Made by a program: the position numbers and the translations under genes | Shown: positions 24,972 to 31,550 of the stretch, piece after piece | Layout: each line of letters starts with the position of its first letter | Position numbering within the stretch: the first letter of the stretch is position 1 | Assembly (NCBI GenBank): GCA_947625435.1 | Contig: CANQOI010000016.1 | Span: forward strand, 1 to 43,017 | DNA length: 43,017 nt | Direction of reading: 5' to 3' | From: an uncultured Clostridia bacterium | Lineage (GTDB): Bacteria; Bacillota; Clostridia; UBA1212; UBA1255 | Notes under the pieces: model-generated | The model's database searches: none | What the model saw: only the letters and a program-made list of their open reading frames with translations | Told to the model about the DNA's origin: nothing

Positions 24972-25631
24972 TCAGATATATTTACTTGCTTCCTTTATGC
25001 TTAAGCTGTTCATTGCGCAGCCGTGCCTGTTTATGAATTCCTTCACAAAGCCGGGATCGGTCTTCGAGTAATCCCTGAGTGCCCAGCCGATCGCTTTGTT
25101 TATAAAGAACTCATTGCTGCCGAAGCTGTTTACGATGACCGTTTCCAACAGAGCAGTGTCGGTTTTGTGTTTTAATCCGAGCTGATGCTCTATTGCCGTT
25201 CTTCTGACCCAAATATTTTCGTCCTTCGACCAGTCGATCATCAGATCTTTGACTCTCGGATCCCGGAGACCGATATCTCCTATTATTTTACACAGAAAAT
25301 CTATCGTGTCCCACCATGATCTTGTAATGACGTAGTGTTTGATATTGGGTATATCTTCAAAGGAAATATATTTTTTGGCGGCAAAAAGATAATCATATAC
25401 CAGATATTGAAATTCTCTGTGGTCATCGTCATAACATTTATCAAGAAAATCCCAATCGATCGCTTGCGATCTCTTTTCCGCCCTGAGAAAATCATTGCAG
25501 GCTTTCTTCCTTTCGGGAGCGGGAATGCCGTAAAATTCAAACAAGTTTCTCATATATTTGGACATGACGACGGCTTTTTCCTTGTTTTCCTTTGATTCAA
25601 ATATTCTTTTGATCTCGGAATACTTGTCCAT
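24972..25631 (-). CDS. AlkD-like DNA alkylation repair enzyme
   Basis: AlkD-family glycosylases are built of HEAT-like helices and remove N3- and N7-alkylated purines without flipping the base. By eye, the aromatic/acidic cleft residues of Bacillus cereus AlkD match W107 and D111 (RSWWDTIDF) and W183 (KAIGWALRDYSK). The family signature WVRRTAIEHQL is at about 141-151. Length 219 is typical. The start ATG 25631 lies five bases after the rmuC stop, and its ribosome site (AGAGGA) is within the rmuC end, so it is translationally linked. It is the last gene of the repair-related minus-strand run. Confidence 0.9.
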   Translation of the reverse strand: MDKYSEIKRIFESKENKEKAVVMSKYMRNLFEFYGIPAPERKKACNDFLRAEKRSQAIDWDFLDKCYDDDHREFQYLVYDYLFAAKKYISFEDIPNIKHYVITRSWWDTIDFLCKIIGDIGLRDPRVKDLMIDWSKDENIWVRRTAIEHQLGLKHKTDTALLETVIVNSFGSNEFFINKAIGWALRDYSKTDPGFVKEFINRHGCAMNSLSIKEASKYI

Positions 25632-25636
25632 TTATA

Positions 25637-26938
25637 TCATTCCTCTATTCCCAGTACCTCGTCCGCCTCGCCGCTGTCAAGTATCTCAACATTTTTGAGA
25701 TTCTTTTGTATCAGCTCGTTTCTGCGGTACGCGTCGTCGAGCGTTTTACCGGCCTCGTCTACCTTCTTTTTCGCCTTTACCAACAGGTCGCCGAACTTGT
25801 CGTACTGTGTTTTGGCCGCGCTCAGTATCTTACGCACCTCATCCGCTTTTTTATTTATGGCCATAGTTCTGAAGCCCATGGCCAGCGAATTCAGAAGTGC
25901 CGTGATCGTGCTCGGGCCGGTCACCATGATGCCCAGAGTCCGGAGCTTTTCTGTTATGCCGTTCTTGCTGGAGGCTATTTCCGCATACAGCCCTTCGGTG
26001 GCAAGGTAAAGTATGGCAAACGGCGTCGTTTCGGGCGAACTTATGTATTGACTGACGAGCTTGCCTTCGTCAAGGACTCTGCGTTCAAGCGCCTTTTTGG
26101 CATTTTCAAGAGCTTCGGTATCTCCCGCGTCTGCCGCCGCCGAAAGGCGTACATAGTCCTCCATAGGGAATTTTGAATCTATGGGAAGGTACGTTATGCC
26201 GTCGTCGTTCTGATTCGGTATTTTAACGGCGAACTCGACCCTGCCGTTATATTTCGGGTTCGTCTGCACATTAGTTTCATACATACCGCGTATCGTTTCG
26301 TCAAGGATATTTCCGAGCTGGACCTCCGCCCACGTTCCCCTTGCCTTAACGTTAGTAAGTATGCGGTTGAGCCCTTTCACGTTATCGGTGACTCCGGTTG
26401 AGAGTTCCTTCATTTCACCGAGGCTCTTGTACACATTCTCAAGCTGTTCGGATACGGTCTTAAAAGAACTGTTCAGCCTCTGATTGAGTGTTTCCGCAAG
26501 CTTTTCGTCCACGGTCTTCCGCATCTCCTCGAGCTTTTTCTCGTTGCTTTCCTGCATCAGTGTGATGGACTCGCTCACTCTGCGTGTCTGCTTTTCGGCG
26601 TTTTCGTCCACGGTCTTTCGCATTTCCTCAAGCTTTTTCTCGTTGCCGTCCCTTAAAGAGGTTATGCCGTCGGACATCATTTTACTTATACGCATCATCT
26701 GTTCGTAGTTTTTCTCAATGATCTTCTGTATATCGCCGGACAATTCGCGTGAAAGCTTCTGCACGTCGTCCGATATCCCGCGCACGGCCTCATTCGTCTG
26801 CCGCGCATGCATATCGGCCTTCTGGTCCAGCAGCTCGAGCGAGCTGTCCTTTTTCGGTCTGTTTTTCAAAGCGACGATCATTCCGGCCGACGCCAGTACG
26901 ATACTGATCACCTGCAAAATGATAATGTATATTTCCAT
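25637..26938 (-). CDS. rmuC: RmuC-family DNA recombination protein
   Basis: RmuC proteins are membrane-anchored nuclease-fold proteins that limit recombination at inverted repeats. An N-terminal membrane helix (about 2-22) precedes a long coiled coil (about 40-180). The coiled coil contains an internal duplication, two LEEMRKTVDE segments with ESNEKK or DGNEKK before them. The conserved core follows: KARGTWAEVQLGNILDE, VEFAVKIPN, LPIDSKFPMEDY and PFAILYLATEGLYAEI. The frame is open 11 codons further up, but AGGAG sits before ATG 26938, giving 433 residues starting in the membrane helix. It starts 13 bases after the glycohydrolase stop. Confidence 0.92.
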   Translation of the reverse strand: MEIYIIILQVISIVLASAGMIVALKNRPKKDSSLELLDQKADMHARQTNEAVRGISDDVQKLSRELSGDIQKIIEKNYEQMMRISKMMSDGITSLRDGNEKKLEEMRKTVDENAEKQTRRVSESITLMQESNEKKLEEMRKTVDEKLAETLNQRLNSSFKTVSEQLENVYKSLGEMKELSTGVTDNVKGLNRILTNVKARGTWAEVQLGNILDETIRGMYETNVQTNPKYNGRVEFAVKIPNQNDDGITYLPIDSKFPMEDYVRLSAAADAGDTEALENAKKALERRVLDEGKLVSQYISSPETTPFAILYLATEGLYAEIASSKNGITEKLRTLGIMVTGPSTITALLNSLAMGFRTMAINKKADEVRKILSAAKTQYDKFGDLLVKAKKKVDEAGKTLDDAYRRNELIQKNLKNVEILDSGEADEVLGIEE

Positions 26939-26951
26939 ATATGCGCTCTCC

Positions 26952-28301
26952 TCACAGTTTGATATGTTCAAGAGTCATTTTAACTCTGTCGGATATCTTT
27001 ACGGTGCCTACACCGAAAAGAGATGTATGCAGCGTGTCATTGACAGGCTTTTTCCAGTATTCCGGGATGCCTTCAATGCCGTTTCTCATGCCGAGTACGG
27101 AACCCACAGTGGCGCCGTTACAGTCGGTATCAAAGCCTGTTTCGACCGCCATGCAGATCGATCTGCCGTAATCTCCGTTTCCGTAAAGAACAGATGCGGC
27201 GACTATCATTGCATTTGAAACGGCATGGCACCATCCGTGACCGGTATATTCATCGTACTTTTGATGTATCATTCTGAAACAATCTGCCTGCGGCATACCT
27301 TTTTTGTATCCGTCCAACACCGACATTATGCTCTCGTACAGCCGTGAAGTATAAGGTATCTGCGAGAGACCCGCAAGAATGATATTTTCGGTGTCATCCG
27401 TCACGGCGGCCGCCGATATCATGGCCGCAGCGAACATTTCACCGTATATGCCGTTTTTGACATGTGAGATCGATGCGTCTCTCCAAGCCATTTCCGCTGC
27501 CTTCTCCGGATTTCCGGGATTGATATATCCGAAATAATCGCCTCTGATCTGCGCGCCGATCCATTCGCGGTACGGATTTTTGTATATTGCGGACTGAGGG
27601 GGCTCGTAACCGTTCATAAAATTGCAAAAAGCCACTCTTTCGGCCGTACAGTATGCGTCCTTGCTCTGATATCTGAGCCACGCTCTTGATACATCATACG
27701 GCGTGAAATCCTTTCCGTGATCTCTCACTGTCATCTGCGCGAGTACAGTGTAGTTTGTATCGTCATCCACCGGCATGCCGTCGATCTCATCCGCATATAT
27801 CCTGTCTGCGAAACCGTAACTGTATTTCTTTACTGTGTCATCCGTGATGTCTGTCCTGTAAACATACCTGTGCATGGGATAGTTGCCGGATTCCTTTAAA
27901 AACGGTATAAGCTCATTCGTACGTATACCTTCCAATGTTTTTCCGAGCATACATCCGCAGACCCGTCCTACCCATGCGCCGTGTATCTTGCTCTCAAGTA
28001 CTTTTTCGTCTGCTTTTTCTGAAATAAGATCGCCTTTTCTCAGTGCCCTGATGGAATCCGGATCGGACGGCTCAATATATTTATAATCATCGCGCTGCTT
28101 TGCATTGCTCACGATCTCAAACAGCACATCTCCGAGCTCTTTTTTTATCTCATTTTTAGGGAGCTTTGAAACGGCCGTGAACAGATCCCTGTATGCTTCT
28201 ACGTCCAATCCCTCTTCGACAGATTGCTCATACTCGGTGAGAATCGCAGATGCGTAGAATTCCCAATCATGAATGTTTGAATATTGCGGTTTTACAGACA
28301 T
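26952..28301 (-). CDS. ADP-ribosylglycohydrolase family protein
   Basis: Members of this family (DraG/ARH) cleave ADP-ribose from proteins or small molecules with a two-magnesium site. Visible motifs: GAWVGRVCGCMLGKTLEG (about 108-125), PVDDDTNYTVL (about 177-187) and VETGFDTDCNGATVGSVLG (about 395-413); the acidic metal ligands are present. About 100 residues of unassigned N-terminal sequence precede the core. AAGGAGGG lies seven bases before ATG 28301. The substrate is unknown. It heads a tight run with rmuC and the AlkD-like gene, 106 bases below the Y-family polymerase, with no clear terminator between; I infer co-expression with DNA repair. Confidence 0.88.
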   Translation of the reverse strand: MSVKPQYSNIHDWEFYASAILTEYEQSVEEGLDVEAYRDLFTAVSKLPKNEIKKELGDVLFEIVSNAKQRDDYKYIEPSDPDSIRALRKGDLISEKADEKVLESKIHGAWVGRVCGCMLGKTLEGIRTNELIPFLKESGNYPMHRYVYRTDITDDTVKKYSYGFADRIYADEIDGMPVDDDTNYTVLAQMTVRDHGKDFTPYDVSRAWLRYQSKDAYCTAERVAFCNFMNGYEPPQSAIYKNPYREWIGAQIRGDYFGYINPGNPEKAAEMAWRDASISHVKNGIYGEMFAAAMISAAAVTDDTENIILAGLSQIPYTSRLYESIMSVLDGYKKGMPQADCFRMIHQKYDEYTGHGWCHAVSNAMIVAASVLYGNGDYGRSICMAVETGFDTDCNGATVGSVLGMRNGIEGIPEYWKKPVNDTLHTSLFGVGTVKISDRVKMTLEHIKL

Positions 28302-28407: not shown

Positions 28408-29622
28408 TCAGCGTTCGACAAACCATGCGGGCGGCATCCCGACGCTCCGGCAAAGGATCCCGTTTTTGATACTGTCCTTCCCGAAACGTCCGCGGATCGC
28501 CTCAACACATTTATCCAATCTTTCGAGCTTCTCTATCCTCTCGTGATCCGTAAACAGACTGATCTGCCCGGGCGTATCCTGCGGCACGAGATCGATCGCC
28601 TGTACGGTAACGGACCGTATGTTATGTTGCCACGGGTACTTCTCCTCAAAGATCCCGTACGCCGTTTTCGCGATGATCATAGGAGACTGTGTGGGAAAAT
28701 CGATCTTCGTCTGCCACTGCTTTGAACATAGCGTGTTGTCCCGTATATGCAGCGCCACTCCCTCGGCGCTTAATCCGTGCACGCGCAGCTTATGCCCGAT
28801 ATCCTGTGTCAGCTCAAGGATGACCGGCCACACCTGCTCGTCATTTTCCAGATCCGCAGCTGTCGTGATACCATGACTCACACTTTTGATCGGAGGGACG
28901 AAATCGGTCTTTGCTACGGCGGAGCAGTCAGCGCCGTTGGCAAATTGCCGGAGCAAGACCCCGTTCTTTCCGAGCCAACGTCTCAACATGTCCGGGTCGG
29001 CATTTGCCAGATCGCCTATCGTCCTGATGTAATATCTTTCCAAGACTTTCCTCGTCGCTCGTCCTACGCCGAGCAGGTCCGAAGCCGGGAGCCCCCATAT
29101 CTTATCCTTGAAGCTGTCCTCATCGATCACCGTAACGGCATCCGGCTTCTTCATATCCGAGCCGAGCTTTGCGAATATTTTATTGAAGGATACGCCCACT
29201 GAGACAGTCAGCCCGAGTTCAGACCTGATCGTCTCACGTATCTCATTAGCGACCCTCTCAGGCGGACCGAAGATCCCGCCTGTACCGGAAATATCCAGCC
29301 AGCATTCGTCCATTCCGTACGGCTCCACCCTGTCTGTATATCGTTCATAAACGCTGCGGGCAAGCTTGGAATATCTGATGTATTCCTCAAAATGAGGCGG
29401 AACCGTAACAAGATCTTTACACTTCTGCTTTGCCTGCCATACTGTGTCGCCGGTCTGTACATCAAAAGCTTTCGCCTTGTAGTTCTTGGCAAGTACAATG
29501 CCGTGCCTTTTCTCCGCCGAGCCGCAGACAGCGACCGGATATTCTCTCAGGGCAGGGTCAAGCAGGCATTCGACGCTCGCATAGAAATTGTTCATATCGC
29601 AATGTAAAATATTTCGCGGCAT
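28408..29622 (-). CDS. dinB: Y-family translesion DNA polymerase (DinB/UmuC-like)
   Basis: Y-family polymerases copy damaged templates with low fidelity. The palm catalytic residues are D9 (HCDMNNFYASVE) and D105-E106 (GMDECWLDIS). The family motif SVGVSFNKIFAKLGSDMKKPDAV is intact, followed by the helix-hairpin thumb (DLLGVGRATRKVLE) and little-finger domain. Near the C-terminus QISLF is a good beta-clamp binding motif. Length is 404 residues. A consensus promoter (29722-29694) drives it, with dyad operators in and beside the promoter. It faces the XRE/ImmA genes, so it is probably induced by proteolysis of the repressor rather than by LexA. Confidence 0.95.
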   Translation of the reverse strand: MPRNILHCDMNNFYASVECLLDPALREYPVAVCGSAEKRHGIVLAKNYKAKAFDVQTGDTVWQAKQKCKDLVTVPPHFEEYIRYSKLARSVYERYTDRVEPYGMDECWLDISGTGGIFGPPERVANEIRETIRSELGLTVSVGVSFNKIFAKLGSDMKKPDAVTVIDEDSFKDKIWGLPASDLLGVGRATRKVLERYYIRTIGDLANADPDMLRRWLGKNGVLLRQFANGADCSAVAKTDFVPPIKSVSHGITTAADLENDEQVWPVILELTQDIGHKLRVHGLSAEGVALHIRDNTLCSKQWQTKIDFPTQSPMIIAKTAYGIFEEKYPWQHNIRSVTVQAIDLVPQDTPGQISLFTDHERIEKLERLDKCVEAIRGRFGKDSIKNGILCRSVGMPPAWFVER

Positions 29623-29638
29623 TTCCTTCCGACCCCCT

Positions 29639-29666
29639 TGACATTATGGGAAGTTCAGCATAAAAT
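29639..29666 (+). promoter_or_regulatory. promoter of the XRE repressor gene
   Basis: TTGACA (29639-29644), 16-base spacer, TAAAAT (29661-29666). Operator 1 lies within the spacer. Transcription would start near 29673, giving a leader of about 100 bases that runs antisense through the dinB promoter. Confidence 0.6.
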
Positions 29667-29746
29667 ATGTGCAGTTGAACTTCCTGTTTCACTATTATAC
29701 GCAGTCTGACTTCGCATGTCAAGCGTAAAACGAGAAGTTTAACTGC
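29648..29746. promoter_or_regulatory. four dyad operators between dinB and the XRE repressor
   Basis: Four related sites share the dyad AGTYnRACT within GAAGTTnAACTGC. Site 1 is GGAAGTTCAGC (29649-29659, half degenerate). Site 2 is GCAGTTGAACTTCC (29671-29684). Site 3 is GCAGTCTGACTTCGC (29701-29715). Site 4 is GAAGTTTAACTGC (29734-29746). Centres are 21, 30 and 33 bases apart, about two to three helical turns. Site 1 is in the XRE promoter spacer, site 3 in the dinB promoter spacer, site 2 between the two start points, site 4 upstream of the dinB -35. The adjacent XRE protein is the obvious ligand. Confidence 0.75.
29694..29722 (-). promoter_or_regulatory. perfect-consensus promoter of dinB
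   Basis: Minus strand: TTGACA (29722-29717), 17-base spacer, TATAAT (29699-29694), matching the sigma-A consensus at all 12 positions. Such a strong promoter for a mutagenic polymerase implies tight repression, and an operator fills its spacer. Confidence 0.85.
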
Positions 29747-29773: not shown

Positions 29774-30178
29774 ATGACCTTCGGAGAAAAAGTCAAAGCC
29801 GAAAGAACAAAGCTCGGTCTCAATCAGGACGAGCTGGCTGCCATGATCGGCGTGACACGCCGGGTAATATGTTCTTATGAAACCGACAGATCACGTCCGA
29901 GGGGAACGGACAGGTACAAAACGCTGGCAAACGCATTGAATGTAAATGTGAACTATCTGCTTTCCGAGGATGACGCCTTCGTAGCAGGCGCAGAAGAAAG
30001 GTACGGGTACCGCGGTAAGAAACAGGCTATGGAGCTTGTCGAAGAAATGGGCGGTCTGTTCGCCGGCGGTGAAATGTCCGATGACGATATCGACGGCGTC
30101 ATGAAGGCGCTCCAGGACTTGTACTGGAAAGCCAAAGAAGACAATAAAAAATACACTCCCAAAAAATATATGAAATAG
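29774..30178 (+). CDS. XRE-family repressor (ImmR/DdrO-like)
   Basis: A 134-residue protein with an N-terminal Cro/C1 helix-turn-helix (about 1-60: GEKVKAERTKLGLNQDELAAMIGVTRRVICSYETDRSRP). Its helical C-terminal part (about 80-134) could serve dimerisation. Size and layout resemble ImmR of ICEBs1 and DdrO of Deinococcus, both cleaved in the C-terminal part by a metalloprotease encoded nearby. GAAGGAG ten bases before ATG 29774 sets the start. It is followed after 25 bases by the ImmA/IrrE protease gene and faces dinB across four operators. I infer that it represses both promoters. Confidence 0.88.
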   Translation: MTFGEKVKAERTKLGLNQDELAAMIGVTRRVICSYETDRSRPRGTDRYKTLANALNVNVNYLLSEDDAFVAGAEERYGYRGKKQAMELVEEMGGLFAGGEMSDDDIDGVMKALQDLYWKAKEDNKKYTPKKYMK

Positions 30179-30203: not shown

Positions 30204-30728
30204 ATGATCGACTCTGTCGGAATATACAGAAAGGCAAACAGCCTCGTACGGATGCACGGAACGAGGGATACGATCAAATTAGCAAAAGCGTCGGGCGTTG
30301 AGGTGGTTCCGGTAGATTATTTCACCGGCCTTCTCGGGATGTATGTGTACCGTTGGAAGCACCGTGCCATATTCCTCAACGGCAGGATGGACGAATATCT
30401 GACACAGATGGTGGCCGGACACGAGCTCGGTCACGATATATACCATAGAGATCTCGCCAAAGGCGAAGGTATGAAAGAGTTCGAGCTGTTCAGAATGCAG
30501 AGCTCCGCGGAGTACGAAGCCAATGCCTTTGCGGCGCACGTCCTGATCGATACGGACGAATGTCTCGGATATGCCCGTGAGGGCTGCGATGTGGTGCAGC
30601 TCGCAAGTATAATGAACTCGGAAATAAATCTGATGCTCATAAAGCTCCAGGAGCTGAGCAAGCTCGGCTATAACATTCGGATTCCGTTTGAGCCGAAAAG
30701 CGATTTCTTCAAAAATATAAAAGCGTAA
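30204..30728 (+). CDS. ImmA/IrrE-family metalloprotease
   Basis: A 174-residue zinc protease of the family that cleaves XRE-type repressors on DNA damage or cell-cell signals. The active site is H73-E74-x-x-H77 (GHELGHDIYH), with the downstream glutamates E103 and E105 in SSAEYEANAFAAHVL as third-ligand candidates. A GTG at 30186 is in frame, but GAGGGG (30188-30193) fits ATG 30204. No sensor domain is seen beyond the protease core, unlike Deinococcus IrrE, so the trigger is unknown. It is expected to act on the repressor encoded just upstream. There is no clear terminator after it; the fic gene converges 42 bases on. Confidence 0.9.
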   Translation: MIDSVGIYRKANSLVRMHGTRDTIKLAKASGVEVVPVDYFTGLLGMYVYRWKHRAIFLNGRMDEYLTQMVAGHELGHDIYHRDLAKGEGMKEFELFRMQSSAEYEANAFAAHVLIDTDECLGYAREGCDVVQLASIMNSEINLMLIKLQELSKLGYNIRIPFEPKSDFFKNIKA

Positions 30729-30770: not shown

Positions 30771-31550
30771 TCATGTGTCCTTCCGTAAAATGTCCAGGTA
30801 TTCCCGATAGGCAAAAACCCTGTTTCTTTCGGCGTTGTTTGTCTGAAAGAGTATTTTGATCTCCTCCAACCGTTTTACCGCGCCCGATACCGTGCTGAAT
30901 GACAATTTCAGCGCTTCAGCTGTCTTTCGGATGTCGATTATCGGATTCTGCTCCAGATATGAGAACAGCACCTTTGCCGTCTTTGCCGCCCGGCCCATTT
31001 TATCGATCGCATTCATATTCCTGTCATGAAGTAAGGACAGCTCGCGTATCGTCTTCGAAGCATCCTCAGCCGAGGATTGCACCGCCCGCAGAAAAAATTT
31101 TACCCACTGCTCATAATTGTCTTTGTTGCGCACCTCACTCATGCGGTCATAATACTCGATACGATTTTTCTTCAGATAAAACGACATGTACAATGCCGGC
31201 GTCTGCAAAGCGCCCTGCTCCGTCAAGAATAATGTGATCAACAGTCTCCCCAAACGACCGTTCCCGTCTAAGAAGGGATGTATCGTTTCGAACTGATAAT
31301 GTATCATGGCCGCACGTATCAGCACATCCTGAGTGTCTTCCGCATGAAAATATTTTTCAAGGTCCGACATAGCCTCCGCCATATCCTCAGGATTGGGAGG
31401 GATATATCTTGCGGTTTTCAAAGTGCTCCCGGCAGCCCCGATCCAATTCTGGGAGATCCGGAACTCGCCCGGGTTTTTATCACTGCCGCGCACACCCTCC
31501 ATCAGAATCGAATGGGTCTCTTTGATCAGCCTGTTTATGCAGGCCTCCAA
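30771..31550 (-). CDS. Fic-domain protein with C-terminal winged helix, N-terminally short
   Basis: Fic enzymes transfer AMP or other phosphate-containing groups to target proteins. The active motif HPFLDGNGRLGR is complete, with upstream GEFRISQNWIG and downstream winged-helix-like DIRKTAEALKLSFSTVSGAVKRLEE (about 207-231). The usual family form, about 370 residues, has an N-terminal FIC_N region with an inhibitory (S/T)xxxE(G/N) helix; here the protein starts right at the core. Start is unsettled: TTG 31550 (used here) has no ribosome site, GGAGG at 31548-31544 is followed five bases later by ATA (31538), and the first ATG is 31502. A consensus promoter and three operators precede it, so the short form seems to be a real transcription unit. 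Confidence 0.78.
   Translation of the reverse strand: MEACINRLIKETHSILMEGVRGSDKNPGEFRISQNWIGAAGSTLKTARYIPPNPEDMAEAMSDLEKYFHAEDTQDVLIRAAMIHYQFETIHPFLDGNGRLGRLLITLFLTEQGALQTPALYMSFYLKKNRIEYYDRMSEVRNKDNYEQWVKFFLRAVQSSAEDASKTIRELSLLHDRNMNAIDKMGRAAKTAKVLFSYLEQNPIIDIRKTAEALKLSFSTVSGAVKRLEEIKILFQTNNAERNRVFAYREYLDILRKDT

Follow-up and report, generated by a model that had tools for sequence, protein, structure and literature searches.

The locus raises the question of how dinB, the gene for a Y-family DNA polymerase, is controlled when its promoter faces that of a neighboring XRE repressor gene. LexA/SOS control is the familiar answer for dinB, and HdiR-type or UvrX/UmuC modules on Gram-positive elements likewise place a damage-type repressor beside a Y-family polymerase. 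The window (the whole 43,017-nucleotide stretch analyzed here) comes from an uncultured Clostridia bacterium. The LexA winged-helix DNA-binding domain scored over the cut-off in none of the 16 genomes of its family, the window genome (98% complete) included, and the positive control worked. Divergent LexA-like S24 proteins were found in four relatives (G001, G005, G012, and G014), and the window genome encodes an XRE-S24 protein. Since such divergent proteins exist, the absence is limited to canonical LexA, and the statement that the family lacks LexA altogether was rejected as too strong. The XRE protein at the dinB locus differs from LexA and HdiR-type repressors in having no self-cleaving S24 domain; a separate protease would act instead.

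A candidate for that protease, which the earlier note had not mentioned, is encoded directly behind the XRE gene.

29774..30178, plus strand: XRE repressor, 134 aa (Pfam HTH_3; HTH at residues 3-62; LFAGG loop at residues 95-99)
30204..30728, plus strand: M78 (ImmA/IrrE-type) metallopeptidase, 174 aa (Pfam Peptidase_M78; HELGH and a downstream EYEAN)

The nearest solved relative of XRE by profile was the DNA-binding domain of ImmR (7t8i; E = 3e-14). Structural comparison of the XRE DNA-binding domain gave a Z score of 11.9 over 64 residues, with resemblance to the ImmR, CapH, and DdrO domains, among others. The alignment with DdrO was confined to the HTH (residues 1-64), and outside the HTH the XRE fold had no match in the searches run. 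In the XRE model, the LFAGG loop lies between the last two helices, in the same place as the DdrO cleavage loop, which precedes the last helix of that protein (PMC8072749). LFAGG was present in 117/117 sequences examined; the database scan was seeded on LFAGG, while the family loci were not. The M78 model matched PprI/IrrE best and CapP weakly, and its catalytic motifs HELGH and EYEAN were invariant in six sequences. XRE-M78 is an ImmR/ImmA-like pair that is also like IrrE/DdrO and CapH/CapP.

M78 proteases of the IrrE/PprI, CapP, and ImmA types cleave their partner repressors after DNA damage (PMC10904395, PMC8072749, PMC10233336). Single-stranded DNA activates PprI and CapP (PMC10904395), and activation of ImmA has been reported to depend on RecA (PMC10233336, PMC6540685). 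Pfam gave Peptidase_M78 alone for the 174-aa window protein, with no GAF domain. Since PprI uses its GAF domain for activation by single-stranded DNA, the activator here could differ.

The closest known arrangement is ImmR/ImmA of ICEBs1 of Bacillus subtilis and of TnSmu1, in which the gene for an XRE repressor of about 130 aa has a small M78 protease gene behind it and a target that is divergently transcribed. The window likewise has an XRE protein within the range of about 110 to 140 aa with an ImmR-like HTH, an adjacent M78 protein with HEXXH and a downstream Glu, and repeated predicted operators at a divergent target promoter. The ICEBs1 comparison covered gene content, divergence, and DNA-binding profile. 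Unlike ImmR/ImmA, the window pair faces a Y-family polymerase and repair genes, and no RapI/PhrI input was seen. The usual integrase/excisionase context, which the mechanism does not need, is also missing: by eye, neither gene was recognized among the open reading frames of the 43-kb window, whereas an integrase is present in a relative described below (L200). IrrE(PprI)/DdrO of Deinococcus similarly combines an M78 protease with an XRE repressor over DNA repair genes, but the window M78 protein lacks the GAF domain and the pair adjoins one local target rather than controlling a dispersed regulon. CapP/CapH of CBASS is another M78-XRE pair, activated by single-stranded DNA, and the window XRE HTH resembles CapH; however, no CBASS genes were recognized among the neighboring open reading frames, and the target is a polymerase.

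The two divergent genes are served by promoters that point at each other.

29638..29666, plus strand: XRE promoter, TTGACA (29638-29643)-17-TAAAAT (29661-29666), 11/12 consensus positions, predicted start near 29673
29694..29722, minus strand: dinB promoter, TTGACA (29722-29717)-17-TATAAT (29699-29694), 12/12 consensus positions, predicted start near 29687

The earlier note had described the dinB promoter as full consensus, which it is, and the XRE promoter as TTGACA-16-TAAAAT, for which the hexamers hold and the spacer is 17 bp rather than 16. Its facing arrangement with about 15 bases of transcript overlap was borne out by the predicted starts, which lie about 14 bp apart. When the 151-bp intergenic region was shuffled with dinucleotides preserved, 0/5,000 shuffles contained two opposite-strand promoters matching at least 11/12 positions. 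Relatives have the XRE promoter in the same position, and in most of them the dinB promoter is also 12/12.

An RNA polymerase footprint at a promoter spans about -50 to +20. At a start-to-start distance of about 14 bp the two footprints overlap, and initiation at either promoter is expected to shut out the other. Transcriptional interference, as the earlier note proposed, is plausible on physical grounds and its geometry is conserved, but exclusion of one polymerase by the other from a region that both cannot occupy is a likelier form of interference than the 15-nucleotide transcript overlap. Phages P2 (Pe/Pc) and 186 (pR/pL) likewise have facing switch promoters between which a repressor acts; the predicted starts in the window are much closer, and operators lie in both spacers.

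Four predicted operators are interleaved with these promoters.

29650..29662, plus strand: operator 1, half-site GAAGTTCAGC (GAAGTT), in the XRE spacer and extending into the -10 element; conserved in L072 and L200
29671..29683, minus strand: operator 2, GAAGTTCAACTGC, between the -10 elements; perfect motif
29701..29713, minus strand: operator 3, GAAGTCAGACTGC, filling the dinB spacer; two mismatches (GCAGTCTGACTTC), slot conserved
29734..29746, plus strand: operator 4, GAAGTTTAACTGC, in the XRE leader; perfect motif, conserved in L072 and L200

The earlier placement of operator 3 in the dinB spacer and of operator 1 in the XRE spacer was correct, the former as a two-mismatch copy and the latter as a GAAGTT half-site. 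The description of all four as dyads is generous for operator 1. When the window, L072, and L200 were aligned, the promoter hexamers and operator half-sites were among the best-kept columns. The perfect motif GAAGTTnAACTGC occurred only twice in the 2.03-Mb genome, as operators 2 and 4. A genome scan, which had been suggested as a way to find further members of a regulon, gave 104 sites with at most two mismatches, fewer than the 151 of the reversed control; three of the sites had one mismatch, and all three were within open reading frames. A genome-wide regulon for this motif was therefore rejected, as there was no excess over the control and no perfect copy beyond the dinB-XRE locus.

If the four sites are operators of the XRE protein itself, their sequences should change together, and with the protein. 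Promoter-aligned loci have four operator slots (the XRE spacer, between the -10 elements, the dinB spacer, and the XRE leader), and the sequence that fills them differs by group: GAAGTTnAACTGC in the window and L072, CGAAC-n4-GTTCG in the sister genomes, TTCACAA/TTGTGAA, and others. For each of the six slot pairs, the match was better inside a locus than across loci (permutation test on 12 non-redundant loci; p between 5e-5 and 0.007). Operators also resembled each other more where recognition helices did, with the remainder of the DNA-binding domain controlled for (27 loci; partial Mantel r = 0.43 and p = 0.0002). These comparisons are strong evidence that the four predicted operators belong to XRE itself. 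The earlier proposal that XRE represses both promoters through shared operators is well backed, on the comparative side, by the conserved slots, their concerted change, and the co-variation with the helix. The CGAAC-n4-GTTCG sites of the sister genomes were also considered as boxes of an SOS-like regulon; this was rejected, since counts were below the reversed control and perfect sites were few.

The layout, whose wide conservation was not part of the earlier note, was then followed across XRE relatives, which were present in 15/16 family genomes, with M78 adjoining XRE in every locus examined. A scan of named genomes gave 291 XRE relatives, 80 of which were fetched, nearly all from Clostridia or other Bacillota; relatives were also found on 18 viral contigs. 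Cultured carriers include Hespellia stercorisuis DSM 15480 and Blautia parvula, the latter with a UmuC-type polymerase. A Y-family polymerase gene was divergent from XRE in 39 loci (33 fetched and 6 from the family), and in 38 of these, all but L144, the promoters faced each other with starts 11 to 21 bp apart. After redundancy was removed, facing promoters were found in 27/28 Y-polymerase loci, in 33/57 relatives with no divergent polymerase, and for 2/349 other genes of the same loci; with at least 10/12 matches required, the counts were 26/28, 24/57, and 0/349. Since loci were chosen by XRE sequence and not by promoters, this enrichment is not circular. Two classes of Y-family polymerase, DinB and a distant UmuC/UvrX-like class, are found under the same switch, and on the XRE tree, which is short and poorly resolved, the polymerase association changed several times.

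In the window, dinB is followed on the same strand by three further genes.

28408..29622, minus strand: dinB, Y-family DNA polymerase IV, 404 aa (Pfam IMS, 3e-44; NCBIfam Pol IV models below curated cut-offs)
26952..28301, minus strand: DraG-like ADP-ribosylglycohydrolase, candidate second operon gene (Pfam; 107-bp gap to dinB)
25637..26935, minus strand: rmuC, candidate third operon gene (Pfam RmuC, 1e-63)
24972..25631, minus strand: AlkD-type DNA alkylation repair enzyme, candidate fourth operon gene (Pfam DNA_alkylation, 3e-61)

The intervals between these four genes held no minus-strand terminator-like site, and no minus-strand promoter of at least 9/12 was found in the dinB-DraG gap. Weak 9/12 minus-strand promoter matches were present at the start of the alkD-like gene and inside it. 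The four genes appear to form an operon that would be transcribed by read-through from the dinB promoter. The sister genomes (L065:2254-3615, also L064, L066, L067, and L068) have a conserved amidohydrolase and a DUF3792 membrane protein behind dinB, not repair genes. On the other side of the window module, a Fic/DOC-family protein with a winged HTH (30771-31550) is encoded convergently with the M78 gene.

Taken with the known activities of M78 proteases, this arrangement makes it likely that a mutagenic repair operon here is under a proteolytic repressor switch of the ImmR/ImmA type. Before any damage, XRE would occupy the four operators, keeping the consensus dinB promoter silent and its own promoter low. 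Upon DNA damage, the adjacent M78 protein would be activated by single-stranded DNA or RecA, as for IrrE/PprI, CapP, and ImmA, and would cleave XRE, probably in the LFAGG loop between the last two helices. Cleavage would release dinB together with the DraG-like, rmuC, and alkD-like genes. With overlapping polymerase footprints, only one promoter would be occupied at a time; initiation at the released dinB promoter would then suppress XRE-M78 synthesis, and recovery would need the repressor to rebind.

The origin of the module bears on this interpretation. The window XRE groups with that of L072 (support 99) and apart from the dinB-linked XREs of its own genus, which implies horizontal acquisition; orthology with those same-genus XREs is unsupported by the tree. 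The nearest annotated relative, L200 (a 518-kb Monoglobus record), has an XRE 73% and a DinB 78% identical to those of the window. Behind its dinB are a second ImmA/IrrE gene, a sigma factor, HTH proteins, and then a site-specific integrase, and tetracycline resistance (tet) genes lie on the other side of the module. Integrase-like open reading frames were recognized by eye in L072 and L079, and phage genomes also carry the arrangement. Given these integrase-bearing and phage relatives, the module travels on mobile elements. The second, larger ImmA/IrrE-type protein behind dinB (L200:3298-4029; L072:1306-2094, the latter below the Pfam cut-off) is absent in the window and is possibly an extra layer of control in the mobile relatives.

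The window copy could then be a leftover control region, in which the switch governs excision or mobility in the integrase-bearing relatives, dinB is merely the first operon gene, and the module persists here after loss of the mobile genes with no selected role in the damage response. The run of L200 genes to an integrase with tet genes nearby, the integrase-like frames of L072 and L079, the phage relatives, and the pairing with L072 all favor such a history. Yet both promoters, the operators, the catalytic residues, and the reading frames are intact in the window, which is ordinary chromosome (by eye, its first 10.6 kb hold a pyrimidine biosynthesis cluster). The place of mobile genes behind dinB is taken by repair genes and not by decayed remnants, no integrase was seen in 43 kb, and genus relatives retain a parallel module elsewhere on the chromosome, beside mraZ. 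We therefore consider a leftover region unlikely. Still less probable, and in our judgment very improbable, is that XRE-M78 is an autoregulated toxin-antitoxin-like pair with dinB as an incidental neighbor. Some XRE-M78 pairs have been so described (PMC2701414, PMC10538038), and several relatives of the window XRE have no adjacent polymerase; against this, 38/39 linked loci have facing promoters, with matching operators at the promoter of the polymerase gene, two polymerase classes are associated, and studied M78 proteins of the same type act on their partner repressor.

A narrower alternative concerns geometry and would leave the rest of the switch standing: the facing layout may be a compact means of dual repression, with exclusion or interference having no regulatory effect. 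Operators alone account for dual repression, and the two that lie in promoter spacers would block both promoters anyway. However, a start distance held at 11 to 21 bp over widely divergent loci is tighter than shared operators seem to require, and we give this alternative somewhat less than an even chance. Returning to the proteolytic switch with promoter exclusion, a more ambitious version can be put forward only tentatively, as we consider it less likely than not: that this is a widespread LexA-independent damage switch with mutually exclusive facing promoters, fixed geometry, and operators co-evolving with the recognition helix, and that in this genome a module taken from a mobile element now runs a host repair operon, with all-or-none and possibly bistable mutagenesis as the outcome. 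If so, a local protease-repressor pair would let many Clostridia and their mobile elements turn on error-prone DNA synthesis independently of LexA, which would bear on mutation in these bacteria and on the spread of elements under DNA damage. The conserved geometry and matched operator and helix changes also form a natural series for studying promoter exclusion and the DNA-recognition code of small XRE proteins. Each component is of a known kind; in the open-access literature searched, no description was found of a clostridial Y-family polymerase under an XRE-M78 switch, nor of the combination of such a switch with facing promoters and matched operator turnover.

More than half of the non-redundant XRE relatives have no divergent Y-family polymerase, and 24/57 of those have no facing promoters; control of a polymerase is therefore not the only role of the family. 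Several loci depart from the window pattern in other ways. In L030 (272-1303) and L033 (96-1313), and also in L067 and L068, the switch is kept over a DinB-like protein that has lost catalytic motif residues: HCDMNNFYASVE is replaced by HCKIDHMGTP or HCKVDNFYIS, and DE by GE in L030. Such a protein is probably an inactive polymerase whose regulation was retained. In L022 and L023 (also L069 and L070), facing consensus promoters and TTCACAA/TTGTGAA sites lie beside XRE-M78, but the opposing promoter has no evident gene downstream and points toward pyrB/pyrI, consistent with a lost target or an RNA. Facing promoters were also found in L082, L086, L087, L095, L102, L119, L125, L139, L146, and L156, where the divergent gene encodes a protein of about 190 aa with a motif like HKTKLLLKIYRPVV. 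The two of these proteins that were tested had little or no Pfam match, with weak similarity to DUF1492 in one. By its recurrent position opposite XRE-M78, the protein of about 190 aa is another predicted target of the switch.
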